From: Lentibacillus sp. JNUCC-1
GTDB lineage: Bacteria > Bacillota > Bacilli > Bacillales > Amphibacillaceae
Direction of reading: 5' to 3'
Assembly: GCF_009741735.1 (NCBI RefSeq)
Contig: NZ_WHOH01000001.1
Span: 2,108,001 to 2,172,000, forward strand
DNA: 64,000 bases
The position numbers and the translations under genes are program-made. This document shows positions 3,405 through 59,124 of this stretch, in pieces. The notes under the pieces are model-generated. The model was not told the origin of the DNA. It saw only the letters and a program-made list of their open reading frames with translations, and ran no database searches. Every line of letters starts with the position of its first letter. Position 1 is the first letter of the stretch.

Positions 3405-3543
3405 AATTTCTTCGTTCGGGCTGATAATTTCTTTGTTCATTAGGATTATTTCTCCGCTCGGGCCGATAATTTCTTCGTTCATTAGGATTATTTCTTCGCT
3501 CGGGCTGAAAATTTCTTCGCTCAAGCCGTTCATTACGACGCTC
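3405..3543. repeat. 21-bp-period motif array A
   Basis: Seven units start at 3405, 3426, 3447, 3468, 3489, 3510 and 3531, exactly 21 bases apart. The core on the minus strand is GARCGAAGAAAT; the remaining bases alternate between two spacer types (GGGCTGAT-like and ATTAGGAT-like). The array lies between the operon's stop codon and the bidirectional terminator that starts at 3544, so it is probably transcribed as 3' UTR. Because 21 is a multiple of three, it leaves spurious open frames. Confidence 0.9.
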
Positions 3544-3586
3544 AAAAGCTCATGCCAAGCACGAATCCCCTGGCATGAGCTTTTTC
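3544..3586. terminator. Bidirectional intrinsic terminator
   Basis: AAAAGCTCATGCCA pairs with TGGCATGAGCTTTT around a 13-base loop, with a T run on the plus strand and an A run (T on minus) at the other side. It sits between two convergent genes. Confidence 0.9.
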
Positions 3587-3602
3587 TATTTACTGGGAAA
3601 TC

Positions 3603-4199
3603 CTACCTCGACCGGTAAGGGTTGTCCTTTATCCAAAATCTATACGGGTAATCCTTCGCGGGCCCGGAGTTGTCTATGCCAATGCGTGGGCCTGTTGCGA
3701 TGTTTTCAACAGACGCCCCCTCCGCAATGATGAGTGGCGGCTGGAAAAATGTCCGGCCATAGTCACTCATCTCAATACCCATGGCTTTTGTGAGCTTGCC
3801 TGGCCCGTTGGTGAGATTTTTCATTTTATCAACAGGACGACGGGCCTGCATCAATTCGATGCCGTACACTGGCTCTACTGCCCGGATCAGGATGGCCTGG
3901 GGGTTGCCGGGTTCGGCGGCGACCACATTAATGAGGCAGTGGGTGTGCATGGTGTAGGTGTACACATGCCCGGGTTCGCTGAACATGATTTCTGTCCGCT
4001 TTGTCCGGCGTTTGCCGAAGCTATGTGCAGCCTGGTCATGCTCACCTAAGTATGCTTCTGTTTCCACGATAACACCAGCGGTTAGGCCTTCCTCGGTATC
4101 TTTCACAAGGATATGTCCGACCAGTGACCGAGCCAGTTCTAACGTCGGTTGTTGGTAAAATTCCGGCGGCAATGGTTGAAAAGGTGGCTGCAAATCCAT
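3603..4199 (-). CDS. mpg: 3-methyladenine DNA glycosylase, AAG/MPG type
   Basis: 198 residues, the usual length for bacterial AAG-type glycosylases, which excise alkylated and deaminated purines. Family landmarks are ARSLVGHILV, VETEAYLGEHDQAAHSFGKRRTKR, FSEPGHVYTYTMHTHCLINVV, AVEPVYGIELM and LTNGPGKLTKAMGI. The general-base Glu is in the VETEAY segment. It is monocistronic or paired with the gene at 4239-4733. A second, unrelated methyladenine glycosylase (tag) is at 58.1 kb, so two classes of alkylation repair enzyme sit in one window. Confidence 0.95.
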   Translation of the reverse strand: MDLQPPFQPLPPEFYQQPTLELARSLVGHILVKDTEEGLTAGVIVETEAYLGEHDQAAHSFGKRRTKRTEIMFSEPGHVYTYTMHTHCLINVVAAEPGNPQAILIRAVEPVYGIELMQARRPVDKMKNLTNGPGKLTKAMGIEMSDYGRTFFQPPLIIAEGASVENIATGPRIGIDNSGPAKDYPYRFWIKDNPYRSR

Positions 4200-4238
4200 A
4201 CATCAAGCACTCCTATTCCATACAGTTCATTTTTATAG

Positions 4239-4733
4239 TCACTCTTCCCGTTGATCGGCGCGTTTAATCGTTTGGACCAACAGCCTTCGAAAAGTATTCT
4301 TGTCCTCATCAGTAAGCGCCTTAGGACCTTTCGTTTTATAACCAGCGCGGCGTGCTTTGGCACCAGCATGACGCATGGTCAGGAGGCGGTCAATATTATC
4401 AGCCGTATAAGCAAAACCCTTATGATGCAGGACGTAGCAGCCTTTTGCCAAACATAGACTGGCGAGTCCGTAATCTTGTGTTATGACAATATCCCCCCGC
4501 GCAACGAGCCCCGTAATTCGGTAATCTGCGGCATCTGCTCCAGCATCGACATAGATTGTTTCAACACCAGGCTGTTTCTCATCATGTGAAAAATGGTTAA
4601 TACTTTTCACGAGCTTTACAGGTAAACCTTCCTTTTGAGCTTCTTCTATTACTATATTATTAACTGGACTTGCATCAGCATCCACAAAAATCATCACTGT
4701 TCCATCGCTCCCTAAGGTACATTCTTTCTCCAT
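4239..4733 (-). CDS. YaiI/YqxD family (DUF188) protein
   Basis: About 150 residues. The conserved core starts MIFVDADASPVNNIVIEEA and continues with IVITQDYGLASLCLAKG and LTMRHAGAKAR near the end, as in the YaiI/YqxD family, which resembles PIN-like nuclease folds with clustered acidic residues. Its function is not established. The longest frame begins at 4733; family proteins usually begin just before the VDAD motif, so GTG 4697 or ATG 4694 (after AGGGAG) are credible starts. It is probably cotranscribed with mpg. Confidence 0.85.
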   Translation of the reverse strand: MEKECTLGSDGTVMIFVDADASPVNNIVIEEAQKEGLPVKLVKSINHFSHDEKQPGVETIYVDAGADAADYRITGLVARGDIVITQDYGLASLCLAKGCYVLHHKGFAYTADNIDRLLTMRHAGAKARRAGYKTKGPKALTDEDKNTFRRLLVQTIKRADQREE

Positions 4734-4827
4734 CTAAGCGAATCCCCGTTCATTTGTCAAACATCGTTATAATTCTCTTCAATTGGCAAATACTACTTAT
4801 ATATTCGTAAAAAGGACGGGATGCAAA

Positions 4828-5274
4828 ATGAATCATTTAAAAATACTTGGAATTAAATTTATTGCAATTTCAGTATTGGTGCTTTCAATCTTTGGGATGA
4901 CAAACGCGACGACGATTCCTAATTTGCTGCTGATCAGTCTTATTATGACTGTAACGACATATGTCATTGGAGACGTGCTCATTTTGAGAACAGCGGGCAA
5001 TCTTACAGCAACCCTGAGCGATTTCGCCTTACTGTTTGTCGGGTTGTGGCTGCTTGGGAATTATTCGATTGGGACAGACCAGCCAATTATGGCACTTTCA
5101 CTAACGGCAGCATTTTTCATATCGTTCGTGGAACCTTTTATTCATCGGATGATTTTAGAACAAACAGAGGAGAAGACTACCGCGACCACACCAGCATGGA
5201 CTGGTCAACTTCAAACGGAATTTTCGGAAGAACTGGACCCAGGCGAACAAGAACCATCAGATGATAACAATTGA
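4828..5274 (+). CDS. yndM: YndM family (DUF2512) membrane protein
   Basis: 148 residues with four membrane helices (LGIKFIAISVLVLSIFGM, NLLLISLIMTVTTYVIG, FALLFVGLWLLGN, ALSLTAAFFISFVEPF) and an acidic C-terminal tail. This matches the small DUF2512 family of Bacillus; the function is unknown. The ATG at 4828 is preceded by AAGGACGGG. The TGA stop lies exactly at the right-end border of the TnpB element, so the last codons or the stop may come from the insertion. Confidence 0.8.
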   Translation: MNHLKILGIKFIAISVLVLSIFGMTNATTIPNLLLISLIMTVTTYVIGDVLILRTAGNLTATLSDFALLFVGLWLLGNYSIGTDQPIMALSLTAAFFISFVEPFIHRMILEQTEEKTTATTPAWTGQLQTEFSEELDPGEQEPSDDNN

Positions 5275-5433
5275 CACTCCCACAGCTAAAGCAGTGGGAT
5301 TCTCGAGTGCTAAGACGTTCGCGGTCCCTTTCGGTTTTGAACTAGCCTCAAGTTAAGGGGGCTGCCATGGCCCCGTCCAACTGCGTTATGAATTGTACCG
5401 CAATTGGCGGTATACCTGTTACCGGTACACGAG
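5275..5433 (-). ncRNA. Candidate omega/re-RNA of TnpB
   Basis: About 160 bases downstream of tnpB, reaching the right end, contain no gene but strong pairing, for example the palindromic GTACCGGTAAC and ACCGCCAATTGCGGT stretches and the terminal GTGGGATT/CCCAC hairpin. In characterised IS605 elements this region is the guide-RNA scaffold, and the guide is the flanking DNA beyond the right end. Here the guide would be the last bases of yndM on the minus strand. This is inference by position. Confidence 0.6.
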
Positions 5434-6504
5434 TTATATAACTTGTTTATGTTTGGAGATGCCTGACAGGGCTTTTGCGATATTGATGCTTGCATTTAAA
5501 TCCGCGTGGTTTTTATAGCTGCACTTTTTACATTTGAACCTCAAACCATTGCGGTTTTGCTTGTCACAATTTCCGCATTTACATGTTTGCGATGTATAAT
5601 TTGGCACGACATATTCAACCGTGATGCCTGCCATTTCTGCTTTATACTGAATGAATGTCTGAAGCTGATGGAAACTCCAATTGTTTAGGTTTCTGCCTGC
5701 TTCTTTTTTTGATTTAGCCATGCGAATACCTGTCAAATCTTCCATTCTGATCAGTCCAACACCGTTGGACCTGGCAAACCGTATGATTCGACGGGATATG
5801 GTATGATTCATTTCTCTCATCCAAAGGGACTCTTTATCTTTTGATTTTTTGATAGCTTGAAGTTTTTTCAGCTTGCCCAGCTGGCGTCTTCTTGAAGAAA
5901 ATCTTCTTCTTTTGAAGGCTATTTGATTGCCTTTAAAAAATAAACTTTTCGTGCCGACACTGCATGTGGCGATGTTTTTCAACCCAAGGTCAATACCCAA
6001 TACCTTCTCATTGGTCGTTTTTTCTACGTCATAGGAAATGGCAATTGTCACAAACCAGCGGCCTCTCTTTTTAAAAAGGTCAACCGTACCTTGTTTGGCT
6101 TCACCGTTTAAAATCTTATCGAGCCATTTTTGCTGAAACGGTCGGACGACCAAAGGCACGCCGATACGTTTTTCAAGTGTCGGGAAGCTGATTTTATAAA
6201 GCCTGTCATATTCTATTTTGGCGTTTTGGTTATTGAAAGCACACCAGAGCCGTTTATATTTTTTCGCTTTTTGGTGTCTCTTTTGACTTTTCACGTCCCG
6301 AATCGTTTGATTAACAACTGCTGAGGGCAGTTGTTTGTTGGATGAGAACAGCTTGAATACTTTGGATGTCGCTTTGTTCAGATCGTCATAAGTTAAAAGC
6401 CAATTAGCGAAATCCGTGTTTGTTTGTGTCATTGTTTGATACACATTTTGTTTTTCTATTGTCGGCTTTAGCAATTCTACTTTCAGAGAAATTGTTGGCA
6501 CCAT
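5434..6504 (-). CDS. tnpB: TnpB RNA-guided endonuclease
   Basis: 356 residues, full length for small TnpBs. The RuvC-like site is complete: D172 in GIDLGLKNIAT, E255 in RMEDLTGIR and D335 in KNHADLNASINIAKA. A zinc ribbon is formed by C310/C313 and C325/C328 (CKCGNC and KCKKC). A basic N-terminal half holds the RNA-binding part. GGAGGTGAA lies directly before the ATG. TnpB is an RNA-guided DNA nuclease that cuts using an RNA (omega or re-RNA) derived from the right end of the element; nothing here looks inactivated. Confidence 0.92.
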   Translation of the reverse strand: MVPTISLKVELLKPTIEKQNVYQTMTQTNTDFANWLLTYDDLNKATSKVFKLFSSNKQLPSAVVNQTIRDVKSQKRHQKAKKYKRLWCAFNNQNAKIEYDRLYKISFPTLEKRIGVPLVVRPFQQKWLDKILNGEAKQGTVDLFKKRGRWFVTIAISYDVEKTTNEKVLGIDLGLKNIATCSVGTKSLFFKGNQIAFKRRRFSSRRRQLGKLKKLQAIKKSKDKESLWMREMNHTISRRIIRFARSNGVGLIRMEDLTGIRMAKSKKEAGRNLNNWSFHQLQTFIQYKAEMAGITVEYVVPNYTSQTCKCGNCDKQNRNGLRFKCKKCSYKNHADLNASINIAKALSGISKHKQVI

Positions 6505-6710
6505 TTCACCTCCTCAACTGTATTATATCAAATCAAGAACATATGTTCCAGTTTTATTTTAATTGTTTTGAACCTTTTATTTTTAAGATCATGTCTTAAT
6601 ATATTCGCTCTCATCCCACACCTGAAGGAATGGGCTTTCCCGCTCATTAGTACGGTAATGGCTGTCTTGTGGTCCTAACAACGATATTCAGCTCGAAATT
6701 CCTGAGGGGC

Positions 6711-7610
6711 TCACTTGGCATTCCCTCTCTTTCCATACCGCTTTCTCCCGAAAAAGTTCACGATAAAGACGCTTGAAATTGCTATGGCGCCGCCAGTTAA
6801 TGAAAGCACACTCGGCCATTCATCCAGCCATATCCAGGCAATTAGAATGGCAATGGCAGGTTCCAGATACATCATTGCAGTAACCGGGCCGGCATTGCCG
6901 TATGATAGGGCCGTGGCCCACATGGCGTATGCAATAGCGGCAGGGAATATCCCCACAAACAAGGCTGCTATGTGAGCACCAGTCGTCGCTTCCATGAGAT
7001 TACCGCCGAGTCCGGGCATAAATACAAGCATTGGCAGGGTTCCGGCCCACGTGAAATAAGCCGTCAGTTCAATCGGTTTGTAACGTTTGAATAACGGTTT
7101 TTGGAACACAAAGAAAAAAGAGGTTGCGATCGTGCCTACAAGGACAATCAGCGTTCCTCCTGAAAGGGAGAACGCTGATTGTGATGATCCAAATGTAATA
7201 AGCAAAAGGCCAGAAAACCCGACACCTAACCCAATCCAGCTGAATAATTCCATCCGTTCTCTGAGAGCGATGGAGGCAATGATGGCAGTGAAGATGGGGG
7301 CAGAACCAACGATCAAACTGGCACTGCCTGCTGTGATGGTCTGGACACCAAACGTTAATGCAGAGTGATAAACCGTAATGCCCAAAAATCCAAGCACACC
7401 AATTCGAAGTAAATCTTTTTTTCGTGGAAGTTTTAAATGAACACCTGGCAGTAGGGCATACAGCATAAAAAGAGCTGATGCAACCAGAAAACGGACGAGC
7501 ACCAAATGGGCCGGTGTGTATCCGCCAAGCAGGCTTGCTTTTACACCGGCAAAAGACGAAGCCCAGATCACGATCACAAGTCCTGCAAGAAGTGTTGCAC
7601 GTTGGTTCAT
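6711..7610 (-). CDS. EamA/DMT family transporter
   Basis: 299 residues with about ten membrane helices in two EamA repeats; glycine-rich helix ends such as SASLIVGSAPIFTAIIASI and MMYLEPAIAILIAWIWL mark the ends of repeats 1 and 2. The drug/metabolite transporter superfamily exports metabolites or amino acids; the substrate cannot be assigned. The last residues are basic (GRKRYGKRG) and cytoplasmic. It has its own unit, oriented away from the TnpB element's left end. Confidence 0.88.
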   Translation of the reverse strand: MNQRATLLAGLVIVIWASSFAGVKASLLGGYTPAHLVLVRFLVASALFMLYALLPGVHLKLPRKKDLLRIGVLGFLGITVYHSALTFGVQTITAGSASLIVGSAPIFTAIIASIALRERMELFSWIGLGVGFSGLLLITFGSSQSAFSLSGGTLIVLVGTIATSFFFVFQKPLFKRYKPIELTAYFTWAGTLPMLVFMPGLGGNLMEATTGAHIAALFVGIFPAAIAYAMWATALSYGNAGPVTAMMYLEPAIAILIAWIWLDEWPSVLSLTGGAIAISSVFIVNFFGRKRYGKRGNAK

Positions 7611-7643
7611 ATGAAGCCTCCTTCCAGTTCTTTTACAAAAAGA

Positions 7644-7919
7644 TTAACCTGTATTTTTCAATATCGTGTGTGTGATTTTCGTTTGTTGGCGATCATGATA
7701 GACAGCACGGTGCATTTTATCAGGATTCATGCGCCCGATCACTTTACGCACCTGCTTGTTTCTTGTGACAACACGCTGATTGGCAGAATCGTTAAGTAAA
7801 TCTTGAAACCACTGTTCTTTTTTCAAATAAGCAATGTTTCGATTGATATCGTGTTCCTCAGGGTTTCGCATATCAATTGAAAAGAAAAGAACCTCAAGAA
7901 CATCGAGCAAAATCCACAT
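7644..7919 (-). CDS. Small protein of unknown function
   Basis: 91 residues: a hydrophobic N-terminus (MWILLDVLEVLFFSIDMR) followed by a strongly basic, hydrophilic remainder. GGGGTGAT stands just before the ATG, which supports translation. It lies between the AI-2E-type permease gene and the EamA gene on the same strand, only about 20 bases after the permease's stop. I do not recognise a family. Confidence 0.5.
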   Translation of the reverse strand: MWILLDVLEVLFFSIDMRNPEEHDINRNIAYLKKEQWFQDLLNDSANQRVVTRNKQVRKVIGRMNPDKMHRAVYHDRQQTKITHTILKNTG

Positions 7920-7940
7920 ACCATCACCCCAGCAGGAAAA

Positions 7941-9119
7941 TTAGGCGTTATGATCTCCCTTAATTTCATACTCTCCATACTCGTCACCGTAAAAGCGGTT
8001 GTACCGTCTCTTGAATTTCCCGTACAAATATTGCACGATCACTTTAACAATCGCATAGCCCGGGATCCCGAGAATCACCCCAACAAGTCCGAACAAATTC
8101 CCCGCAACCAGCAGTACGATAATGATCGTCAATGGGTGGATCTTCATTGTGCGGCCCATAATATTCGGCGAAATAAAATGACCCTCAAGAAATTGAACAG
8201 CTGCCCACACGATCGCAAGCTTTAAAAGCATAAATGGTGAGTCCACAATCGCAATAATCACAGCAGGCGAAATCGCAATCATAGGTCCTAGATATGGGAC
8301 AACACTGGTAACAGCTGCAATTATGGCAAGCGTCAGAGCAAACTCAAGTCCGATAACCAAATACCCGATGAACAAAAGCACACCGATACAAGTCGCTACA
8401 ATAATCTGGCCCTGAATATAAGATCCGACCTGCACGTCCATATTGTTCAAAATCTGATTCAAATCATTTCTGTATTTTGGCGGCAAAATATTAATGCAAT
8501 ATTGCTTGAATCGGTCCCCATCTTTCAGCAGGAAAAATAGAATAAATGGGAACGTCACTATCGCCACAACAATGTGGGTCAAGGTGCTGGCCACGTTGCG
8601 GATCCCTTCGACGGCGCCGCCCAAATAGGTCGTAATTTTAGAAGGAAGATCACTTAAATGACTGGTCACCCATTCATAGCCTTGATCATAATACGGACCA
8701 AGAAACGAATGGTTCACCCATTTTTGAAAATCATCGGCCATCTTTGTAATGTACTTAGGAAATTTCTGTGCCAGGTCTGTTACCTGCTCATCAATGGCAG
8801 GCGCCGAGAGTAAAATGACCCCTGTTAAAAGTCCGCTGATACCGAGAATAATGATAAGAATGCCCCATACGCGCTTAATATGCGCTTTTTCCAACAGATT
8901 AACAATAGGATTAATTAAGTAGTAAGCAATAAATGCCAGAATAACTGGCGGTACGATCGTCGAAAAGATAACAATTAATGGATGGAAGATAAACGATACT
9001 TTATTGTAAATATAGATTGTAATGCCAAGTAATATTAGTATGAGCAATCCATAAGCTAAATCACGGCCACCCATGAATTTCATAAAGCGACTGAATGTTT
9101 TTGTGTTCATTCGACTCAC
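7941..9119 (-). CDS. AI-2E family (PerM/YueF-type) transporter
   Basis: 392 residues with about eight membrane helices and the family's conserved blocks: FIAYYLINPIVNLLEK near the N-terminus, FPFILFFLLKDGDRF in the middle and VPYLGPMIAISPAVIIAI followed by GVILGIPGYAIVKVI at the C-terminal side. Despite the name, most members have no proven AI-2 transport; Na+/H+ antiport and general efflux have been reported in the family. The long, highly charged tail is cytoplasmic. It is transcribed with the small gene at 7644-7919. Confidence 0.9.
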   Translation of the reverse strand: MSRMNTKTFSRFMKFMGGRDLAYGLLILILLGITIYIYNKVSFIFHPLIVIFSTIVPPVILAFIAYYLINPIVNLLEKAHIKRVWGILIIILGISGLLTGVILLSAPAIDEQVTDLAQKFPKYITKMADDFQKWVNHSFLGPYYDQGYEWVTSHLSDLPSKITTYLGGAVEGIRNVASTLTHIVVAIVTFPFILFFLLKDGDRFKQYCINILPPKYRNDLNQILNNMDVQVGSYIQGQIIVATCIGVLLFIGYLVIGLEFALTLAIIAAVTSVVPYLGPMIAISPAVIIAIVDSPFMLLKLAIVWAAVQFLEGHFISPNIMGRTMKIHPLTIIIVLLVAGNLFGLVGVILGIPGYAIVKVIVQYLYGKFKRRYNRFYGDEYGEYEIKGDHNA

Positions 9120-9412
9120 CTTTTGGTATTGGATTTTTTACTTCATTGCAAGTACAGGATCTCTCTCTTAAATAACATTATAAAAGTTTTGCAGAAGATA
9201 CGCCATGTTCTGTGTGTACTTTGAAATTAAATATGGTATAAATTGGAAGGCAATAGCGATTATTATGTTACAATGATAACGATTTTATATTATTAAAACG
9301 GAAACCTTGCGAGCTATGTAGGTTTCGGATAGAATATATACGCCCGTGAATTAGGTCTAAAGACACGGGCACATGTAACTAACTTAAAAAATGGAAAGTA
9401 GGCGCCTAAGCA
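9120..9412. other. Divergent intergenic region with two hairpins before the cyclase gene
   Basis: 293 bases without a gene. Two stems lie on the cyclase side: GAAACC/GGTTTC (9301-9326) and GCCCGTG/CACGGGC (9342-9370). They would be in the 5' leader of the diguanylate cyclase mRNA. Neither carries the conserved bases of the c-di-GMP-I or -II riboswitches that I can recall, so I call it a structured leader of unknown role. Confidence 0.4.
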
Positions 9413-10889: not shown

Positions 10890-11511
10890 ACAAAATGCGA
10901 ACCAGTGAAAACTTGAAATGACTGCTTCTGGCAACTAACCACCACAATGAGAGAATCGTGATTTGCGCTGCGGGAAGTCGCTTTAACTTTATAACAGCTC
11001 AAGTGCGACATCTGTTCAAGAAAATCACTTTCACAGTGTCTTCTAGCCGCGGGCACGGCCTCAGCCTCCTTGCCCCGGCAAGGGGTATGTCGACGTTGCC
11101 CGCAAAGGGCGGTTTTAGCCGACCCTCCTTAATGTACTCGCTGTGGGGTCTTCGGACTCGTGCTGTTCCCGCAGGAGTCGACTTCCCTCCGCTCCAATCA
11201 CTTTATGTTTGTCAATGGCTTGGACGATCCTTCTGCTTAAGAAGGCCAGCAGGAAGGTGAGCGCCACTCAACTAGCTCGGGGAAAACACGGAGACTCCCG
11301 TGGGAGCAAAAGCCTAAATGAGACCCCACAGCGACGAGCATAACCTCACCGAATACGCTACGAGTTGCGAGGAGTGCGACACCATTGAAGTAACTTGCAA
11401 CACGACGAGCAGATCTTTCAGCGCGAGGAGGCTCATCAGTGCCCACTGGACGCGGAGTGTTTTCCCCGAGCGGCTGCATGAGGCAGTCATAAGTTAGTTC
11501 GCAGTTTACCG
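10890..11511. repeat. Long inverted-repeat element, copy 1 (intact)
   Basis: About 600 non-coding, GC-rich bases. The outer ends are inverted: TGCGAACC near 10897 and TGACTGC at 10919 mirror GGCAGTCA at 11483-11490 and GTTCGCAG near 11499. The inner halves are also inverted relatives: CGCTGTGGGGTCT at about 11139 against AGACCCCACAGCG at about 11319, and CGGAGACTCCCGTGGGAG against CCCGCAGGAGTCGAC. The transcript could fold as one long hairpin. Copies 2 and 3 are at 22.2-26.3 and 34.4-34.9 kb. Similar GC-rich palindromic repeats are common in Bacillaceae intergenic regions. Confidence 0.85.
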
Positions 11512-21877: not shown

Positions 21878-22052
21878 GACTGCAAAGAGATCATTACCTC
21901 AAAACAAGCCAAGCCCAAGACTGATTAACACATCCACAAACTTCCCATCTCAGTAGACACAAACAGCGAACCAAAGAAAACTTTATAAACCTACATAAAA
22001 ATTCTCGGGGAAGTTTTAAGTTACGACTTATATGGCAATTTCATGTGATTTT

Positions 22053-22145
22053 CCGATATATGAGTTGAAAACGCCGATATACACTTCAAAAATTCCGATA
22101 TAACCTCAGAATTTCCGATATCGCATGCAAAATTTCCGATATATC
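22053..22145. repeat. 21-bp-period motif array B
   Basis: CCGATAT cores start at 22053, 22074, 22095, 22115 and 22136 (spacings 21, 21, 20, 21) with A/T-rich sequence such as GCAAAATTT before them. It lies upstream of the synthetase gene and just before the second inverted-repeat element. It shares its core with array E at 50.7 kb. Confidence 0.88.
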
Positions 22146-22170
22146 CAAATTGAACCATATATGTTTGTGA

Positions 22171-22349
22171 GAGCGTCGTGATTTCCGCTGCGGGAAGTCG
22201 CTTTAACTTTATCACAGCTCAAGTGCGACATCTGTTCAAGAAAACCACTTAAACAGTGTCTTCTAGCCGCGGGCACGGCCTCAGCCTCCTTGCCCCGGCA
22301 AGGGGTATGTCGACGTTGCCCGCAAAGGGCGGTCTTAGTCGACCCTCCC
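22171..22349. repeat. Inverted-repeat element copy 2, left fragment
   Basis: GTGATTTCCGCTGCGGGAAG through GGTCTTAGTCGACCCTCC is nearly identical to 10958-11130 of copy 1. It stops at the IS110-family insertion; the next bases of the element reappear at about 24210. Confidence 0.9.
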
Positions 22350-22813
22350 TCTATATAATTAAAATATCTCCAAAATGCTCTTACTTTCTTAGAATTACTC
22401 AAACACTTCATTGACATATTGAATGCGGGTTGAGTATCAGGTGTTGATTTCGGAAATTTCGGACGTAGTCTATGCCATCCTAACGCCCAAATTGTGAACA
22501 TTTGGTGACAAGAGACGTGATAACCGTGCTGAAAATCTCCACACAACTTATGGTCGCTCACCCTCCCATGTATCACGGGATTATTATCCATACATTCCTT
22601 CGTCCTGCGTATCCACAAGGTGGAGGTCGGAAATGCTCCTTAGCTGGGTCTATTGCCCGAATGGGTTAAATAAGCTCCGACTCTGCACTATTGGTGTTTG
22701 TTCAATCCTAAGGCCATCAGATGCATTTGTTGAAACATCCCAAATGAATTAAAAAGGTTTATTAATCGCTCATTCAGAACCACTTATCTACGTGGAGTAG
22801 TTAACATCAATAT
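22350..22813 (-). ncRNA. Candidate bridge/seek RNA region of the IS110-family element
   Basis: About 460 bases between the transposase stop and the element border contain no plausible gene. In IS1111-type members the guide RNA is encoded on this side; in IS110-type members it lies before the transposase, where here only about 110 bases are available. Exact RNA ends cannot be drawn by eye. Confidence 0.4.
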
Positions 22814-24097
22814 TCATGCCACCTGACTTGTTTGTAATTCAGGTAGTCCTTGTAGTAGTTTACTTCCATCAAATTCACACTGCTTCGTGCCAATGGCGAA
22901 TAAGACACGTATCAACTTACCGCACAAAGCGATCAGAGATTGTTGCTTTTTCAAAGGACGATCGGGACGCGTGGTGTAATAATGATGCAATGTCTTGAAC
23001 GTCGAATTATGTGCTACCAGTGGGCGCACAGCTAAATAGATCGCTCTTCTCAATCGCTTGCGTCCACGCTTGTCTATTCGTGTTTGCCCTTTGAATTTAC
23101 CCGAGCTGTGTTCTTTTAAGGATAGACCAGCCATACTTACAATTTGCTGGGGATGACTGTAGTTGGAGAGGTCTCCGACCTCGGCGAAAAACGTGGCCAC
23201 TGTCGTGGGACCAATGCCTTTAATAGCCATCATTTCTTTAGCTCCAGGTAGATCTGTTATAAGTGTTTCGATCTCTTTATCCAATGACACAAGTTGTTGG
23301 TTGTACAATTCATATTGATCAAGCAGAGTCTGTAATTCCTGCCTGGCAAAGCGCAAACCTATCTGAACACCAATGCTTTTCTGGGCAGCTTGGACAAGCT
23401 GATTGGCACGTTTGATGCCCACACCACTTTTAACGACTGTTTTCCACGTTGAAAGCACGTCTTCAGGGGTCATATCCTGAATATCAGATGGGAATGGGAA
23501 TTCACGCAGTGTACAAATAGCTGTCTTACCATTCCAGTCATTAAACACATCATCAAACTCCGGAAAATACCGTTGTATGGCGTTTTGGATGCGTCCTTCG
23601 ACAATCATCAGCTGTTTGGTGAGTTGATCTCGTAATTTAATCCCTTCCCTTAACTCGGCATAAACACCGTCAAGAAGGTTCGGTACAGAGTATCGACCAT
23701 CCTTAACCATCTGTGCAATAACACGTGCGTCTTTCGTATCATTTTTTGTGGGCGAATTGTCGTCCAGCTCTTTGCTTTTTTTAACATGCATCGGGTTAAC
23801 TAACACAAAGTCATAACCTTTGGCGTTCAGGTAGTAGGCTAGACTCTTCCAAAAGTGGCCAGTCGGTTCAACGCCAAACATGACATGTGTCTTTTGGTTT
23901 TCCTCTTGAAGCCTAGCTACCCAATCAAGCAGCTTTTGATAACCGTGTATTCGATTTTCAAAGATCAATCGTTTGCCAAATTCAATACCTCGATAATCTT
24001 GTGCGCGAGCTACGTGTTTGTCTTTTGCGATGTCAATCCCCACGATCAATGTGGATTCTGTGATTTGCGCGATTTTGTGATTTTGGTTATAATTCAT
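22814..24097 (-). CDS. IS110-family transposase (DEDD recombinase)
   Basis: 427 residues. The N-terminal RuvC-like DEDD domain has LIVGIDIAKDKHVARAQ (D22), GVEPTGHFWKSL with the Glu, and SPTKNDTKDARVIAQM with two Asp. The C-terminal transposase_20 domain contains MMAIKGIGPTTVATFFAEVG, and SMAGLSLKEHSSGKFKGQ with the catalytic-type serines. ATG 24097 follows AAGGAGGA, so the 28 residues upstream are not used. IS110 enzymes recombine DNA guided by a bridge/seek RNA. All motifs are intact, so it may be active. Confidence 0.93.
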   Translation of the reverse strand: MNYNQNHKIAQITESTLIVGIDIAKDKHVARAQDYRGIEFGKRLIFENRIHGYQKLLDWVARLQEENQKTHVMFGVEPTGHFWKSLAYYLNAKGYDFVLVNPMHVKKSKELDDNSPTKNDTKDARVIAQMVKDGRYSVPNLLDGVYAELREGIKLRDQLTKQLMIVEGRIQNAIQRYFPEFDDVFNDWNGKTAICTLREFPFPSDIQDMTPEDVLSTWKTVVKSGVGIKRANQLVQAAQKSIGVQIGLRFARQELQTLLDQYELYNQQLVSLDKEIETLITDLPGAKEMMAIKGIGPTTVATFFAEVGDLSNYSHPQQIVSMAGLSLKEHSSGKFKGQTRIDKRGRKRLRRAIYLAVRPLVAHNSTFKTLHHYYTTRPDRPLKKQQSLIALCGKLIRVLFAIGTKQCEFDGSKLLQGLPELQTSQVA

Positions 24098-24209
24098 TGC
24101 GAGTCCTCCTTGGTATTTATTTAATTCGGGGTCATGATCATGACACCCTGTACTATACCAAGAGGGCTCTTTTCTGTTCAAACCTCAAATTTCTTCATTA
24201 CAGGAATGC

Positions 24210-34396: not shown

Positions 34397-34910
34397 GTAG
34401 ACTGCGAACTAAAAAGCATAATAGATCAAAACCCATCAATGTATATAAGAGCACCGTGATTTTCGCTGGGGGAAGTCGCTTTAACTTTATCACAGCTCAA
34501 GTGCGACATCTGTTCAAGAACCCCACTTTCACAGGGTCTTCTAGCCTCGGGCACGGCCTCAGCCTCCTTGCCCCGGCAAGGGGTATGTCGACGTTGTCCG
34601 CAAAGGACGGTCTTAGTCGACCATCCTTAATGTACGCGCTGTGGGGTCTTCGGACTCGTGCTGTTCCCACAGGAGTCGACTTCCCTCCGCTCCAATCACT
34701 CTATGTTTATTGATTGCTTGGACGGTTTTGCTCTTATTAGAAATGTGAAAGGGAAGCACTCCTCACTTAGCTCGGGGAAAATACGGAGACTCCAGTGGGA
34801 GAAAAAGCCTCGGTGAGACCCCGGAGCGCGGTAGCGCGAGGAGGCTCAGCAGCGCCCACGGAACGCGGAGTGTTTTCCCCGAGCGGTTGCCAGAAGCAAT
34901 CATTCCAAGT
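34397..34910. repeat. Inverted-repeat element copy 3
   Basis: Starts with AGACTGCGAACTAA, the mirror of TTAGTTCGCAG at the right end of other copies. It contains CACAGCTCAAGTGCGACATC, CCCCGGCAAGGGGTATGTCG, CGCTGTGGGGTCTTCGG and, on the other half, TAGCTCGGGGAAAATACGG and GAGGAGGCTCAGCAGC. Sequence divergence from copy 1 is modest and includes paired changes. No coding potential. Confidence 0.88.
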
Positions 34911-48396: not shown

Positions 48397-48445
48397 TGAT
48401 TGAAGCGAGCGGAGCACACTTCTATGGGGGGTGTGCTCTTTGTTT

Positions 48446-48600
48446 GGTAGAAAGAGTTGTTCCTTTGATAGACGGGGGTTTTGCTCCGATAGATTGTAAG
48501 ATTCGTTTGATAGAGAATATTTTTGCTCGGATAGAGTATGTGCTTCATTTGATAGAAGATGCATTCGCTTGGATAGAGATGTTTCTTCGTTGGATAGCTT
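48446..48600. repeat. 21-bp-period motif array C
   Basis: Eight units with RGATAG-like cores start at 48446, 48467, 48488, 48509, 48530, 48551, 48572 and 48593, exactly 21 bases apart. Each core is preceded by a TTCGYT/TTTGCTC-type sequence. The array sits between the ddl stop and a terminator at 48609, so it is probably transcribed as the ddl 3' UTR. Confidence 0.92.
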
Positions 48601-48608
48601 TCACACAA

Positions 48609-48656
48609 AAAAAGCCAGAAGGAAGTCGCGTGGCTGGATGGCTTCCTTCTGGCTTT
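48609..48656. terminator. Bidirectional intrinsic terminator
   Basis: AAAGCCAGAAGGAAG / CTTCCTTCTGGCTTT, long stem with a 16-base loop between convergent ddl and nitroreductase genes. Confidence 0.9.
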
Positions 48657-48666
48657 ATTATTGAAG

Positions 48667-49227
48667 TTAATCTTGATAACTCGTAAATTTCTCATCAAGG
48701 GACATGCGCTCTTTTTTCGCTGGCGGCGTGTCGAAATAGCCAAGATGGACAAAACCGGCGATCTTTTCATTGGGTCCGGCCCCGACAATTTGTTTAACCG
48801 CTTCATCATAGATATGTGAATTGGTTTTCCAGACAGCGCCGAGCTCCTTCTCCCAGGCAAGCAGCCAGAAGTTTTGAATCATGCTGGCAACTGCACCAAA
48901 GTTTTCTTCCCACTGTTTCTGAGAATCGGCTTCATCCATAAGTACCACGAGAATGGCACTGGGTTCACGCAACACCATCTCCCGGTTCGCCTGGCGTTCT
49001 TCCGGATAGGTGGCCGCCACTTTTTTAGCAAAGTCAGGCAGTTGGTCGGCTCCGACAAATACAAAGCGCCAGGGCTGCCGCATCTTGTGCGTTGGGGCCC
49101 AAATGGCATCTTCCAGTAGTTCACGGACTACCGCTTCTTTAACCTCCTGATCGTTATAGCCTTTCTTAACCGCTCGGCGTTCACGGATGACTTGCACCAG
49201 AGCTGATTTTTCCTTTGTTTGTTCCAT
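48667..49227 (-). CDS. Nitroreductase family protein
   Basis: 186 residues: VIRERRAVKKGYNDQEVKEA, AIWAPTHKMRQPWRFVFVGA, a basic helix with FGAVASMIQNFWLLAWEKEL and a C-terminal GFVHLGYFDTPPAKKERMSL. This is an FMN-dependent nitroreductase of the YdjA-like kind, which is usually small and dimeric. The physiological substrate is unknown. It starts at ATG 49227; its upstream region holds array D. Confidence 0.9.
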   Translation of the reverse strand: MEQTKEKSALVQVIRERRAVKKGYNDQEVKEAVVRELLEDAIWAPTHKMRQPWRFVFVGADQLPDFAKKVAATYPEERQANREMVLREPSAILVVLMDEADSQKQWEENFGAVASMIQNFWLLAWEKELGAVWKTNSHIYDEAVKQIVGAGPNEKIAGFVHLGYFDTPPAKKERMSLDEKFTSYQD

Positions 49228-49361
49228 TAATATCCATGCCTCCCACAGTGAACTTTATAGGGGTGTTGAGTTAATTGAGAATTATTTTCAATTATATTGT
49301 ATATGATTGGGAGAGGAATGGCAAATGAAGGTCTTTTTAACTGTGGGGTGAGAGGGGCGAA

Positions 49362-49470
49362 GAAATAAAACAGGTGAGTGGAGAAATAAAAGGGCTGAGT
49401 GAAGAAATAAAAATAAAGTGTAAGAGCGAAGAAATAAAGTACATCAGCAAAGAAAAAAATAAAAGACGAA
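49362..49470. repeat. 21-bp-period motif array D
   Basis: GAAATAAA-type cores start at 49362, 49383, 49404, 49431 and 49452 (spacings 21, 21, 27, 21). Each is preceded by GARCGAA-like sequence, so the core is GAGCGAAGAAATAAA. It lies between the divergent nitroreductase and PfoR-like genes. The same core as array A on the opposite strand. Confidence 0.85.
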
Positions 49471-50680: not shown

Positions 50681-50698
50681 ATGATTATAATGCGTTTT

Positions 50699-50796
50699 CG
50701 CCGATATATCATGCAAAATCGCCGATATATGAGAGGAAACCGCCGATATCCATCTAGAATTCGCCGATATATGACTGCAAATCGCCGATATATTTT
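50699..50796. repeat. 21-bp-period motif array E
   Basis: Five perfect CGCCGATAT cores start at 50699, 50720, 50741, 50762 and 50783, all 21 apart. It starts 18 bases after the PfoR-like gene's stop. GCAAAT or GGAAAC precedes most cores. Shares its core with array B. Confidence 0.92.
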
Positions 50797-52852: not shown

Positions 52853-52855
52853 ATG

Positions 52856-53540: not shown

Positions 53541-53544
53541 TTAC

Positions 53545-53610
53545 GAAAAAAGCTGATCAGCGGCTGGACTCTCTTTGGTTAGAGTGTGCAGCCTGTGATC
53601 AGCTTTTCTT
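53545..53610. terminator. Bidirectional terminator
   Basis: AAAAGCTGATCAGCGGCTG...CAGCCTGTGATCAGCTTTT, an arm of about 19 bp with an inner mini-hairpin (CTCTCTTTGGTTAGAG), between convergent genes. Confidence 0.88.
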
Positions 53611-54483: not shown

Positions 54484-54537
54484 GTCACCACTCCTTCCTG
54501 AAACAGGGACCATTTCAATCTCTGTCAGGCTAGCAGA

Positions 54538-55608
54538 TTATCCTTCTCCCAAATATTGATCGAGTGTTTGTCCGCTTTCCCTGAGTTGTTGAGCAGCTTG
54601 CTTTCCGACATAACGCAAGTGCCAAGGTTCATATTGGTATTGGGTGATGTCTTCTTTGCCTTTCGGATAGCGAATGATGAACCCGAAATCAGCTGCATGT
54701 TCTTTCACCCATTGACCTTCAGGGGTTTTACCAAAATCTGTGACCAAGCGAAAGTTGACGGATTCACTGGTAATGTCCATGGTAAGCCCTGACTGGTGTT
54801 CACTTTCGCCAGGGCGGGCGCTGAAGTTGTTGGCTGCTTCTTCACCGTGCTTTTCGGCGTAATTGTTGAATAGGCGAACTTGGGTGTCATATGCCCTGTA
54901 ACCGGACTGGGCGTACAAGGTATGGCCGGCTTTTTCTGCTGCTTTGAATAGGTCTTCAAGAGCATCGGCAGCGACTATCCGCATTTTTTTCTTTGGCAAA
55001 TCCTCTTCAAATGGAAAACGAACGTCAGGAACTTTGAGATCGATTGGTGTATAGTCGGCTGGTAACGCGTGCGATTTATTAACTAATGCGAGCTGATCGT
55101 AGGGATTTGTGATAACAGGCGTGCCTCTTTCGTTCGATCCCGAGACTGGCTGAGCCTCGTGTACAGGCAATTTGTTCCCGGGTGTAACCTTGGCAGCGAA
55201 TGTTTCTTGGTCCAGTTCTGTCAAGGCCTCGCGCGTTTCCGCGTTATAAACGCCAAGCGCCATAATGGGATCAAGTTGCAACTGGATATCAGTAATAGCA
55301 TTGGTCGTAGCCATGTCATAGGTGCCGCTTGCGTCCATATCATAGCCGAGCTTTATTAAAGATTGCTGCAGTTCGCTTACAGCATCCCCCGTGTCTTGTT
55401 TCTGAAGATGAGCATCCGGCCAGACAAGTGCTTCTTGCTCTCCCATGTCATTATCTTCTCCCTTATCATTCGTATCAGCCGTTTCTGTGGGCTGTTCATT
55501 TGTGTTCTTATTGATATTTTCTTGATTGTTATTGTCAGCAGGGGCACAGGCTGTTCCTGCTATGAGTAAAAAAGTGATCATAATCGTTAATCGTGTGTAT
55601 GTTTTCAA
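54538..55608 (-). CDS. VanY/DacB-type D-Ala-D-Ala carboxypeptidase lipoprotein
   Basis: 356 residues. Lipobox LIAGTAC; a Gln/Asn/Glu-rich spacer; a peptidoglycan-binding PG_binding_1 domain (QDTGDAVSELQQSLIKLGYD, YNAETREALTEL); then a VanY domain: YAQSGYRAYDTQVRLFNNYA, the zinc ligands ESEHQSGLTMDIT and YEPWHLRYVG. It trims D-Ala from peptidoglycan pentapeptide. Anchored on the outer face of the membrane. This metallopeptidase goes with the ddl at 47.3 kb in cell-wall metabolism. Confidence 0.93.
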   Translation of the reverse strand: MKTYTRLTIMITFLLIAGTACAPADNNNQENINKNTNEQPTETADTNDKGEDNDMGEQEALVWPDAHLQKQDTGDAVSELQQSLIKLGYDMDASGTYDMATTNAITDIQLQLDPIMALGVYNAETREALTELDQETFAAKVTPGNKLPVHEAQPVSGSNERGTPVITNPYDQLALVNKSHALPADYTPIDLKVPDVRFPFEEDLPKKKMRIVAADALEDLFKAAEKAGHTLYAQSGYRAYDTQVRLFNNYAEKHGEEAANNFSARPGESEHQSGLTMDITSESVNFRLVTDFGKTPEGQWVKEHAADFGFIIRYPKGKEDITQYQYEPWHLRYVGKQAAQQLRESGQTLDQYLGEG

Positions 55609-55769
55609 GGTTTGTCTCTCCCAATCCTATGCAAATTGCTTCCAAATTATATTGTCGCATATAATATTTGCCCCGACAATAGCAACTTCTGGTCATTCCA
55701 ACCCGGAGCCGCACATCCCTATCGCCCACCACATACACTGTCGGTACAATTGCTGAGGGAGCGAAGGGT

Positions 55770-56978
55770 ATGGATGGCTATGAACCAACTGAAAATCGCT
55801 TAAAACTCATGTCGGGAATTCTGTTCTGGTGTGCACTCGTTGTCGTCTCCAGCGCTTATGTCACGACGCCTTTGACAGGCATTTTTGAGCAGGGATTTGA
55901 CGTGTCCTCAACGCGAGCGGTGCTGCCGACAAGCCTTTTTTCCTTGTTTTATGCGCTGGGATTTTTATTTTTTGGTCCCGTTTCAGATCGATTTGGCCGA
56001 AAAGAAACACTCGTAGCCGGGTTTGCCTCGTTAACCATCGCAACCCTTTGCACAGGGATGGTTAGTCAGTTCGGCACATTTCTGTTTTGGCGCAGTGTGC
56101 AGGGATTTGCAGCAGCCTGTTTTGCACCAACAGCACTCGCCTATGTGTTTGACGTTTATCCCAGGCGAAAGATCGGAGGAGTGGTTGGACTCATCAGTTT
56201 TGGCTACGTTGCGTCGGGAATCTTTGGGCAAGTGGTTGCTGAATGGATTGGTCAAACGTTTGATTGGCACTTGGTCTTTTACCTGTTCACGATCTTTTAT
56301 GCCGCTTCTTTTATTGCCATCATCGCCCTTCTGCCGCTCGCCAAAAGACAGGTCAAACATCAACAGGCTGTTCGGCATTTCTTACATGGAACGAAAACAG
56401 TGTTTCAGCATCGCGGATTGTTAAAGTGTTACTGCATTACCGTTCTGCTTTTGCTCATTTTTATTGGCATGTATACGATCCTAGGCGATATGCTCGTCCG
56501 CGCACCTTTTAATCTGGATGATGGTGCTGTCATGATGGTCCGTGCTGCCGGTTTGATCGGAATGCTCTGTTCACTCTTTGCTGGAAAATTTATTACAGCT
56601 TTCGGAAAAGAACGGATCTTGCAATCAGGATTGTTATTATCGGTAGGCGGACTGCTCATGCTTGGTCTCGTTAACGGGGTGGGATTGATCACCTTAGCAA
56701 GCATCATATACGTCGCCGGAATGTCACTCATCTTTCCAGCGATTATGATGATGATCGGCGATTTTTCCGGCGGGGTGCGGGGCGTGGCCAATGCGTGGTA
56801 TGCATTTATCCTGTTTGCCGGGGCTACAGTCGGACCCATGTGCGCGGTTGGTATTGCTGAGATCACTGGACCCCGTTTGGCAGTTGTGCTCCTGGGCGGT
56901 GTGCTCGCTATTGCGTTGGGGATTGCGTTGACGTTTAAACAATATGGTGATGAGAGGAAGGACGGATTACATGAGTAA
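55770..56978 (+). CDS. MFS transporter
   Basis: 402 residues, 12 helices. Motif A: GPVSDRFGRKETLVAGFAS, between helices 2 and 3; motif C-like region with GVVGLISFGYVASGIFGQVV. Major facilitator superfamily, DHA1 class (drug efflux or metabolite export). ATG 55770 follows GAGCGAAGGG. No operon partner; array F lies right after its stop. Confidence 0.88.
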   Translation: MDGYEPTENRLKLMSGILFWCALVVVSSAYVTTPLTGIFEQGFDVSSTRAVLPTSLFSLFYALGFLFFGPVSDRFGRKETLVAGFASLTIATLCTGMVSQFGTFLFWRSVQGFAAACFAPTALAYVFDVYPRRKIGGVVGLISFGYVASGIFGQVVAEWIGQTFDWHLVFYLFTIFYAASFIAIIALLPLAKRQVKHQQAVRHFLHGTKTVFQHRGLLKCYCITVLLLLIFIGMYTILGDMLVRAPFNLDDGAVMMVRAAGLIGMLCSLFAGKFITAFGKERILQSGLLLSVGGLLMLGLVNGVGLITLASIIYVAGMSLIFPAIMMMIGDFSGGVRGVANAWYAFILFAGATVGPMCAVGIAEITGPRLAVVLLGGVLAIALGIALTFKQYGDERKDGLHE

Positions 56979-57013
56979 GTTTCTAGTAATACAAGCAAGA
57001 GTACCTCTTTCGC

Positions 57014-57174
57014 GAGCACAAGGGAACGGAATGTGAGAAAGGGCAGTCGGATACGAGAGCAAAACGGGTTCAAACGAGAGAAAGGCAGTCGGGTACGGGA
57101 GCAAAACGGGTTCAAACGAGAGCAAGGCAGTCGGGTACGGGAGCAACACCACTTCAAACGAGAGCAAGAGCATC
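57014..57174. repeat. 21-bp-period motif array F
   Basis: GAGCAAR/GAGAAAG cores start at 57014, 57035, 57057, 57078, 57099, 57120, 57141 and 57162 (one spacing of 22, others 21). The spacers alternate between two sequences (GCAGTCGGGTACG and ACGGGTTCAAACGA), so the higher-order period is 42. It begins 36 bases after the MFS gene stop and ends 80 bases before the rhodanese gene. Confidence 0.92.
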
Positions 57175-57253
57175 TAGACTGTGAACAACACTCTTAAACA
57201 CAAACCAAGCCTTCACATGTTATACTGAATAAAACATAACTTGGAGGGTGCAT

Positions 57254-58090
57254 ATGTCTTACATTATTAGTGTCGACCGTTTGAAAAATCGTCTGGAAAA
57301 CAATTTGAATAATACGTTGATCGTTGACGTTCGTTTTCAGCTGAATGACGAGAACGCAGGCCAGAAAACATATCTCGAGAGTCATATTCCCGGTGCCGTA
57401 TATTTGGATTTGAAAAAAGATCTGTCCGCGAAACCAGCTAAACACGGAGGCACTCATCCCCTGCCCGACACAGACACGTTCGCTGCCAAGATGGGAAACA
57501 TTGGCATCGATGAAGAGACAACAGTTGTTGTGTATGATCAGAATAACGGAATGTTTGCCCCGCGTTTTTGGTGGATGTTGCACCATTTAGGTCATGATAA
57601 AGTTTACGTTCTTGACGGAGGCTTTGATGCATGGGTAGAAGCGGGTTATGAAACGACTGCCGAAATTCCAGATTTGAACCCAACAACATTTACACCAAAC
57701 CCGAGACAAGATGAGACAGTGGATATAGATGATGTGAAACAAAGAAGTGACGATGTTCTGCTTATTGACTCCCGCTCACACGAACGCTATATGGGCGAGA
57801 ACGAACCGATGTACAGCAGAGCGGGTCACATCCCAGGTGCCAAGAACTACTTCTGGAAAAATGTCTTGGATGAAAAAGGCAACTGGAAAACAAAAGACGA
57901 TTTAGCTGAGAATTTTAAAGACATTCCTAAAGACACTGAAGTCATTGTTTCTTGCGGGTCTGGTGTGTCTGCATGCCCAAACGTGCTTGGTTTAAAGGCA
58001 GCCGGTTACACCAACGTCAAACTGTATCCCGGCAGTTTCAGCGACTGGATTTCTTATGAAGAAATCCCCGTTAATAAAGGGGAAGAGTAA
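57254..58090 (+). CDS. Thiosulfate/3-mercaptopyruvate sulfurtransferase (two rhodanese domains)
   Basis: 278 residues. Two rhodanese domains: the first (LIVDVRFQLNDENAGQKTYL, HIPGAVYLDLKKDLS) has lost the catalytic Cys; the second (LLIDSRSHERYMGENEPMYS, GHIPGAKNYFW) has the active-site loop VSCGSGVSAC. CGSGVSAC is the SseA-type loop, suggesting 3-mercaptopyruvate sulfurtransferase. TTGGAGGG precedes ATG 57254. Its stop overlaps the tag start (TAATG). Confidence 0.92.
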   Translation: MSYIISVDRLKNRLENNLNNTLIVDVRFQLNDENAGQKTYLESHIPGAVYLDLKKDLSAKPAKHGGTHPLPDTDTFAAKMGNIGIDEETTVVVYDQNNGMFAPRFWWMLHHLGHDKVYVLDGGFDAWVEAGYETTAEIPDLNPTTFTPNPRQDETVDIDDVKQRSDDVLLIDSRSHERYMGENEPMYSRAGHIPGAKNYFWKNVLDEKGNWKTKDDLAENFKDIPKDTEVIVSCGSGVSACPNVLGLKAAGYTNVKLYPGSFSDWISYEEIPVNKGEE

Positions 58091-58668
58091 TGCTCGAGCG
58101 CTGCCAATGGGCGGGCCCGGACCCGCTCTATATTGAATATCACGACCATGAATGGGGCAGACCGCATCATGAAGATCGCCATCTGTTTGAGATGCTTTGT
58201 TTGGAAGGGGCTCAAGCAGGTTTGAGCTGGATCACAATACTAAAGCGCCGTGACAATTATCGCCGAGCCTTTGATGAATTTGATCCCAAGCTCGTCAGCC
58301 AATACGATGAAGCAAAAATTCAGTCTCTGCTCAAAGATGAAGGCATCATACGGAACGAGCGCAAGATCCGTTCTGTTGTTAAAAACGCCCAAGCCTTCCT
58401 CCGCATCCAAGAAGCATACGGTAGCTTTGACGCCTACATATGGCAATTTGTCGGAGGCACACCCGTGTTAAACAACTGGCCGACTCATGAAGATGTTCCG
58501 GCGTATACAGAAGAATCCACCGCCATGAGCAAAGACTTGAAAAAGCGCGGCTTCTCATTTGTCGGTCCCACGATCTGCTATGCGTACATGCAAGCAACCG
58601 GTATGGTGAACGACCACACCATGAACTGCTTTTTGTATCATGGGAAGAAGGATGAAGCACAGGCATAA
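58090..58668 (+). CDS. tag: DNA-3-methyladenine glycosylase I
   Basis: 192 residues: RCQWAGPDPLYIEYHDHEWG, then LFEMLCLEGAQAGLSWITIL (catalytic Glu in EGAQAGLSW), FDPKLVSQYDEAKIQSLLKD, and the helix-hairpin-helix region FSFVGPTICYAYMQATGMVN and DHTMNCFLY, with zinc-ligand His/Cys residues. Tag removes 3-methyladenine. It is translationally coupled with the rhodanese gene. Confidence 0.95.
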   Translation: MLERCQWAGPDPLYIEYHDHEWGRPHHEDRHLFEMLCLEGAQAGLSWITILKRRDNYRRAFDEFDPKLVSQYDEAKIQSLLKDEGIIRNERKIRSVVKNAQAFLRIQEAYGSFDAYIWQFVGGTPVLNNWPTHEDVPAYTEESTAMSKDLKKRGFSFVGPTICYAYMQATGMVNDHTMNCFLYHGKKDEAQA

Positions 58669-58669
58669 T

Positions 58670-58735
58670 AAAAAGCTGAACACTTCGGCAATCCGCTTTG
58701 AAAAAAAGGGGATGCCAAGTGTTCAGCTTTTATTT
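58670..58735 (+). terminator. Intrinsic terminator of tag
   Basis: AAAAAGCTGAACACTT...AAGTGTTCAGCTTTTATTT stem. Confidence 0.88.
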
Positions 58736-58807
58736 GTGTCGTGAATAAGAGTAATGAAATTTTACCTTCTGTGCATGCGTTCCATTTTTGTTTCTATCTT
58801 GTAAGAT

Positions 58808-58924
58808 GAACGTCTTCAATTGGAAAAGGACAACGCGTCCCTGCAAGAGCAGCAGATGCAAGCCATTAATGATGTCCAGAAGCGGCTTACAGATATTGAA
58901 GGTATTTTAAAAGAAGTGGGTTGA
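58808..58924 (+). pseudogene. C-terminal coiled-coil fragment of a small membrane/PspB-like protein
   Basis: The frame reads ERLQLEKDNASLQEQQMQA, then DVQKRLTDIEGILKEVG and stop, a short coiled coil with no start (a stop codon lies just upstream). It resembles the C-terminal helix of short Bacillus proteins ending 'RLQTIEKILKEVE'. It looks like the remnant of a gene whose N-terminal part has been lost. Confidence 0.45.
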
Positions 58925-58991
58925 CCGTTTTGATAAAAATAGTAAACGAAAGCACCAGCCTCCTGAAATGGGCGCTGGTGCTTTGACAGTA

Positions 58992-59124
58992 TATCCAGGT
59001 TATAGAGGACTTTATCCTGAAAAAGAGTGCGGTATCCAGGTTTTCATAAGGTATATCCACAAAAAATATGATATATCCAGGATTTCGCCGCACTTATCCA
59101 GGTTCTTGACCATTATATCCAGGT
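58992..59124. repeat. 21-bp-period motif array G
   Basis: TATCC(AGGTT) cores start at 58992, 59013, 59033, 59054, 59074, 59095 and 59116 (spacings 21, 20, 21, 20, 21, 21). The minus-strand core reads AACCTGGATATA. It lies between the remnant above and ybjQ. Confidence 0.9.

Follow-up and report, generated by a model that had tools for sequence, protein, structure and literature searches.

Dispersed repeats of the REP/BIME, ERIC, BOX and MITE types lie in intergenic regions, often near gene ends, and are palindromic or carry inverted ends. We analysed a window of 64,000 nucleotides of Lentibacillus sp. JNUCC-1 (C1:2108001-2172000 of a genome of 3,687,469 bases in three contigs) which contains seven intergenic arrays built of direct repeats instead, each repeating a short word, the core, with a period of 20-21 bp. 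Plasmid iterons are also direct repeats in rows, of similar length, and are bound by an initiator; the arrays, in contrast, are many per chromosome, and among the typed neighbours of the window arrays, to which this comparison was confined, no replication gene was found (the neighbour at 2540-3349 had no Pfam match). The nearest known kind are interspersed intergenic direct repeats such as STAR of Staphylococcus aureus, in which a short core is dispersed with other sequence between its copies and the copy number varies; the accessible part of its description gives function and mode of spread as unknown and suspects purifying selection (PMC3532100), as we do for the arrays. As far as described there, STAR has one 14-bp GC-rich core with at least 40 bp between copies, whereas the arrays have many words and a period of 20-21 bp, so that the two differ in word, spacing, word number and taxonomic reach. 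The STAR core T(G/A/T)TGTTG(G/T)GGCCC(C/A) matched the window once with one mismatch, at 49088 and outside the arrays, while 3.89 matches are expected with up to two mismatches. The period also sets the arrays apart from CRISPR, for which the consulted part of the source gives a period of about 58-81 and interspaces of 25-60 (PMC6344855). Close direct repeats in prokaryotes in general are treated in the portion of PMC4060949 available to us. Our literature searches, with most subscription journals beyond reach, found no description of these arrays.

The seven arrays are all genuine and lie where an earlier note on this DNA had placed them with a period of 21 bp:

Array A, 3402..3543, minus strand: 7 units, core ATTTCTTCG(C/T)TC on the plus and CGAAGAAAT on the minus strand, alternating with a 42-bp super-period.
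Array B, 22051..22145, plus strand: 5 units, core CCGATAT.
Array C, 48461..48600, minus strand: 7 units, core GATAGA on the plus and TCTATC on the minus strand, flanked on both sides by hairpins.
Array D, 49360..49462, plus strand: 6 units, core GAAGAAATAAA, irregular, in a divergent gap.
Array E, 50696..50793, plus strand: 5 units, core CGCCGATATA, starting 16 bases past the stop of a phosphotransferase system (PTS) EIIC gene.
Array F, about 57030..57190, plus strand: at least 7 units (7 from 57053), core ACGAGAGCAA, alternating with a 42-bp super-period.
Array G, 58991..59127, plus strand: 7 units, core TATATCCAGG, steps of 20 and 21.

Self-identity above 55% (lags 6-80, 100-bp windows) was found only at lags 21, 42, 57 and 63, with lag 57 at 27 positions. 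Tandem Repeats Finder recovered five of the seven arrays (A, B, D, E and F), as did our chain detector (A, B, E, F and G), which requires a 10-base core in at least four copies at period p±1 with no more than two mismatches per step; C and D fell below its threshold and entered the catalogue by hand. D is the least regular of the seven and contains steps of 23 and 19 bases. An array related to A was found at L038 702-822, the class of C occupies at least 25 places on contig C1 among the matches listed, and that of G was met elsewhere by pattern search. Weak predicted frames run over A and C (59 and 80 codons) and mechanical open reading frames over C-F; since lengths of 20 and 21 are mixed among the units, we regard these frames as spurious. 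Together with the fact that only one of 70 catalogued arrays lies under a long predicted frame (the 44-unit array at L046 3344), this rules out that the arrays are coding.

The arrays belong to a genome-wide family, as the earlier note had suspected. In an unbiased sample of 640,000 bases of the JNUCC-1 genome (two contiguous blocks, picked regardless of matches) the detector, with a tolerance of one base, found 27 arrays at p=20 as well as at p=21, and 5 and 18 at periods of 19 and 22. Multiples of the period appeared at 39-43 and 59-64, single matches at 16-17 and at 44-46, and the remaining periods from 11 to 65 gave none. Extrapolated from this sample, the 3.7-Mb genome carries roughly 155 arrays. 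The comparison with shuffled DNA, named in the earlier note as the check that could refute it, left the claim standing: at least three identical 7-mers chained at p=21 marked 33 regions in 394,790 bases (the window and further DNA of the same genome, partly picked around matches) and 0 in each of three block shuffles. The catalogue of 70 arrays comes from 1,194,790 bases, likewise partly picked around matches; five units are commonest (22 of 70) and 44 the largest number. The 303 unit lengths in arrays of up to 12 units, all selected at a spacing of 20-22, comprise 244 of 21 bases, 54 of 20 and 5 others. Some arrays consist of 12-44 near-identical 20-bp copies, and for these, as where whole units were gained or lost, the suggestion of a repeat expanding in a fixed register holds. 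In genome G022, contigs C4 and C5 end inside or just past homogeneous 20-bp arrays; the arrays may therefore break assemblies and be undercounted.

Conservation is concentrated in the core. Of 26 arrays in the unbiased sample, 22 had diverged from their own consensus by 15% mismatch or more; 17 of the 22 had their conserved columns packed into six adjacent ones beyond permutation (P<0.01), in line with the kept core and free spacer previously described. The six-base word retained was TCTATC/CTATCC/GATAGA in 14 of the 26 arrays and TATCCA/CTGGAT in four. Copies of array B that were chosen by their flank and keep an array (n=10) differ at 7/336 core, 28/531 spacer and 102/1008 left-flank positions, and three paralogous C arrays, which differ by whole units, at 4/120 core and 32/334 other positions and at 100/442 in the 150 columns past the array; an orthologous pair located after glmM shows 0/35 differences in the core and 13/52 in the spacer. 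The unbiased within-array test and the array kept at the C place (see below) speak for selection. Aligned by eye in a common orientation, the class words read TATCCAAGCAAGAAC (C), TACGAGAGCAAGAAC (F), GCCCGAGCGAAGAAAT (A), CTGAGTGAAGAAATAA (D), TATCCAGAATTT (G), TATCGGCGATTT (B and E) and ATATCCGAGATTGAA (a class outside the window).

We found that the arrays avoid start codons and tend towards gene ends, the location already proposed from the window. Convergent gaps hold 21, tandem gaps 36 and divergent gaps 9 of the 66 arrays with both neighbours known, against 61, 243 and 102 of 406 gaps of at least 150 bp (Fisher test, convergent enriched, P 0.002; divergent depleted, P 0.04). For 65 arrays, start sides within 100 bp numbered 5 against 17.7±2.9 for random placement in the same gaps, and stop sides 39 against 31.6±3.2 (P 0.016). 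No strand preference was seen in the tandem gaps of JNUCC-1, where 18 arrays run along transcription and 18 are opposed to it. The neighbouring genes of the window arrays share no common function. Replication polarity was ruled out: judged by GC skew of the pieces sampled, the origin lies at 1.7-2.0 Mb of C1, and core orientation switches within one arm. Chromosomal domains defined by core class were likewise rejected, for clustering by class fell from 31 vs 16.9 expected to 14 vs 11.0 (P 0.18) once same-class arrays within 10 kb were collapsed. Strand runs were significant for class C with local duplicates included (20/24 neighbours alike, P 0.0007), gave P 0.054 for class E and no signal for classes G, H and B.

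Several hairpins stand next to arrays of the window:

3544..3585, strand not assigned: terminator-like hairpin directly after array A, read by eye.
48411..48439, plus strand: terminator-like hairpin between the D-Ala-D-Ala ligase gene and array C.
48608..48658, strand not assigned: hairpin AAAGCCAGAAGGAAG...CTTCCTTCTGGCTTT after array C.
58950..58985, strand not assigned: terminator-like hairpin directly before array G, read partly by eye.

The word of the hairpin at 48608-48658 occurs at 8 places in 1.19 Mb, five of them within 200 bp of an array. Another dispersed, hairpin-forming word, CACTTCCCGAATTTTGTCGA / TTCGGGAAGTG, lies near several arrays (C1 about 905200-905800, in L184; L190 881; L180 4436). 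Just ahead of array A, at 3355-3381, 13.5 CA dinucleotides form a run.

Array B is part of a larger unit:

21951..22348, plus strand: dispersed repeat of about 400 bp containing array B, whose right half (22155-22348) recurs without the array.

The left flank of this element matches 18 places, ten of which keep an array, and its right half of about 190 bp recurs at many places in the sampled genome, in the window at 22155-22348, 10948-11128 and 34433-34626. The earlier statement that nothing explains the arrays fails for B, which lies in this repeat next to an IS110-type gene. No window array has an Rfam match, the single match in the window at gathering score (Bacillaceae-1, 34570-34632) lying outside every array, where it overlaps the related right half at 34433-34626. 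The IS110-type transposase gene (22344-24181) adjoins the B element, and its non-coding end (22344-22600) recurs in L045 and L046 with 99.6-100% identity, abutting the dispersed repeat.

Related arrays occur in other genera of the family. Of 159 family genomes in 46 genera, 17 genomes from 9 genera have CCGATAT triples; as a control, the reversed pattern (TATAGCC triples) gave 32 matches in G104, apparently an array of another word, and 0 in the other 158. The words CAGCAGRAGAAA, GAAGTTCACAA and GCGCGAYTTT were each met in two genera. A set of 49 named Bacillales loci (962,367 bases) held 7 arrays, one other match at 24-26 and matches at 38-43, and in 20 further genera (362,522 bases) the arrays numbered 2 at 20-21 (3 at p=22) and 4 at 51-52, with a single match at 65; 31 loci of other taxa (401,226 bases) yielded no arrays and one match at 35-37. 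The gene order at the C place, between D-Ala-D-Ala ligase and nitroreductase genes, is kept in five of seven relatives compared. Two of these five, Lentibacillus sp. CBA3610 and L. halodurans (L079, L080), have an array there with the word ATCAGCAGAAGA, by eye near TATCAGAGCAAGA of array C, and none was seen at the C place of L. saliphilus, Cerasibacillus terrae and Virgibacillus chiguensis. Cerasibacillus quisquiliarum (L083) has an array with a different word upstream of the PTS gene; this was rejected as the D place, since the gene order differs.

In genus g15 the place after glmM holds a CCGATAT array in G015 and G132 and an array of GCTGA-GTTCACAA in G122; there G130 and G121 show what appear to be two and one GCTGA-GTTCACAA units. 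The g15 elements are about 107 bp long and sharply bounded, with five units (steps 20, 21, 21, 21) and flanks that do not align. In G015 (L211 2629-3930) a 324-codon gene stands between two nearly identical 107-bp elements; the matching place in G132 (L230 10588) has one element, without that gene.

A second periodic class was observed in relatives, with a period of 51-52 or about five helical turns and 14 arrays in one scan; no such array occurs in the unbiased 640 kb of JNUCC-1. Arrays of this class lie at L239 3211-3412, L088 12809-13046, L092 17730-17927, L280 18528-18856, L281 15300-15816, L236 6384-6919 and 14150-14702, L201 4053-4694, and, as a 52-bp array, after glmM in G113. The units of L239, L088 and L092 seem to hold an inverted pair, e.g. 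TGTCCGTAAGA...TCTTACGGACA.

The explanation we favour, and to which we give about an even chance, is that the repeats of an array are sites at which a protein binds double-stranded DNA sequence-specifically, lined up on one face of the helix. Typically 5-8, and up to 44, sites would lie two helical turns apart, with the bound subunits on one face and touching each other; the core would be the site, and the spacer would merely set the distance. Such a candidate protein would read the word, bind cooperatively and contact its neighbour, and the fixed number of helical turns, the kept words, the free spacers and the lack of strand preference in this genome fit these properties. The binder may be several paralogues. 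Its purpose, judged from position alone, would be local chromosome organisation or the marking of transcription-unit boundaries, not control of single promoters. Whole arrays would be copied to new places, as with the sharply bounded five-unit elements of g15, whole units gained or lost, and words would drift or be replaced between species. The interpretation of the earlier note is partly supported: its phased protein-binding platform is the candidate that fits best, whereas intrinsic bending found no support, mean curvature having a z of 0.00 against column-permuted versions of 48 arrays. The arrays show little or no excess RNA structure.

A number of results weigh against a row of protein-binding sites. 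The core classes of this one genome required nine labels, so that a single protein would need broad or paralogous recognition. Although 298 of 303 unit lengths are 20 or 21, the arrays had been preselected at a spacing of 20-22; 5 of the 22 diverged arrays miss P<0.01 in the conserved-column test; and when the 18 B matches chosen by flank are taken together, many of them lacking an array, the values for core, spacer and flank are nearly equal (0.67, 0.63 and 0.70). Arrays found by their core show identities of 0.98 in the core, 0.53-0.63 in the spacer and 0.31-0.32 in the flank, and 0.96, 0.59 and 0.30 when all 14 g15 elements are included, the core value being inflated by ascertainment in both cases. 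G001, the closest relative, lacks CCGATAT triples and has one array with a different word in 80 kb; on its contig L082 the places of C, D and E are without an array. Arrays come and go between species: after glmM three of 27 species pass the detector at 20-21, and the remaining loci gave no array at that period. Nor does either of two known proteins explain the distribution. LytTR operators share the geometry, being 8-9 bp direct repeats at two-helical-turn intervals, and in the part of the source at hand they comprise two or three sites near promoters (PMC11347149), whereas the arrays form rows of 5-44 at gene ends; LytTR as universal binder is excluded, since PF04397 at E<=0.001 is missing from G018 and G022, both of which carry arrays. 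The octameric RemA ring of Bacilli is related to LytTR; wrapping of DNA across several weak AT-rich sites has been proposed for it, and its protected stretches come about every 10 bp (PMC8481266). In the arrays the A/T autocorrelation at lags 8-12 is weak (0.01-0.11). RemA-like PF04025 has two matches in each of 23 family genomes, JNUCC-1 included, also where CCGATAT arrays were not found; RemA as binder is neither supported nor excluded.

The most serious alternative, though in our estimate an unlikely one, is a selfish or neutral dispersed satellite that spreads among harmless intergenic sites and grows by slippage or unequal exchange, the cores being alike through recent spread or gene conversion. 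The avoidance of start codons, the quick gain and loss of arrays between species, the near-identical arrays of 12-44 copies, the mutations that do occur in cores of B copies and the class clustering that loses significance on collapsing neighbours would all be expected of it. Slippage, however, yields many periods and the arrays have almost a single one; within-array change avoids one word, as gene conversion tracts of 6-10 bases could hardly achieve; and words recur in separate genera. We consider it quite improbable that each array is instead an operator controlling the adjacent gene, in the manner of tandem LytTR-type sites. The shared geometry speaks for such operators, but start codons are avoided, divergent gaps are under-used, the genes beside the window arrays have no function in common and two array-bearing genomes lack a LytTR domain.

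Ends or targets of mobile elements might also hold repeated words, and Tn7 and Mu ends have several transposase sites; recombination sites for gene shuffling would be a variant of this idea. The position of B inside a dispersed repeat next to an IS110 gene, the sharp bounds of the g15 elements and the gene that is present between two elements in G015 and absent beside the one in G132 agree with it. Among six copies tested, however, some inverted pairs lay inside and none joined both ends, plasmid searches gave no match for array E or the B element, and a viral collection returned 7 and 2 stretches for two patterns; with nine viral stretches in all, a plasmid or phage origin gained no support, and we regard mobile-element ends as very improbable. 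Still further down we place an RNA element working past the stop codon, which appears remote. In its favour, 33 of 70 arrays have a hairpin no more than 80 bp away, compared with 56 of 234 control gaps, tandem-gap elements of g15, counted by hand, run along transcription in eight cases and against it in two, and the RNA energy of 45 arrays compared with column-permuted versions has a mean z of -0.65 on the plus and -0.15 on the minus strand (16% and 7% below -2), slightly favouring one strand. Yet the arrays of JNUCC-1 are evenly split with respect to transcription, the six strands of C, E and F are no more stably folded than shuffled versions (z -0.39 to 0.97), and Rfam is silent on every window array.

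Returning to the row of protein-binding sites, we tentatively put forward a wider version of it, which we think doubtful as a whole: a phased chromosome-organising system in which one protein family would dock on rows of words at the seams between transcription units in many Bacillaceae of this family, with a spacing of two turns (20-21 bp) and, in other genera, also of five (51-52 bp). The vocabulary would be common to genera and the subset in use species-specific and quickly shifting, as if protein and words co-evolved; the C-place array with its drifted word in two other species would be a case. In any event, the arrays are an abundant non-coding feature in several genera of one family, and their narrow spacing rule suggests a protein lattice on one face of the helix. 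Should there be no binder, the length rule itself would require a mechanism, as slippage has no preference for two helical turns. A binder, should there be one, would be a nucleoid or boundary protein of Bacilli that has gone unrecognised, and the arrays could serve as baits for it.

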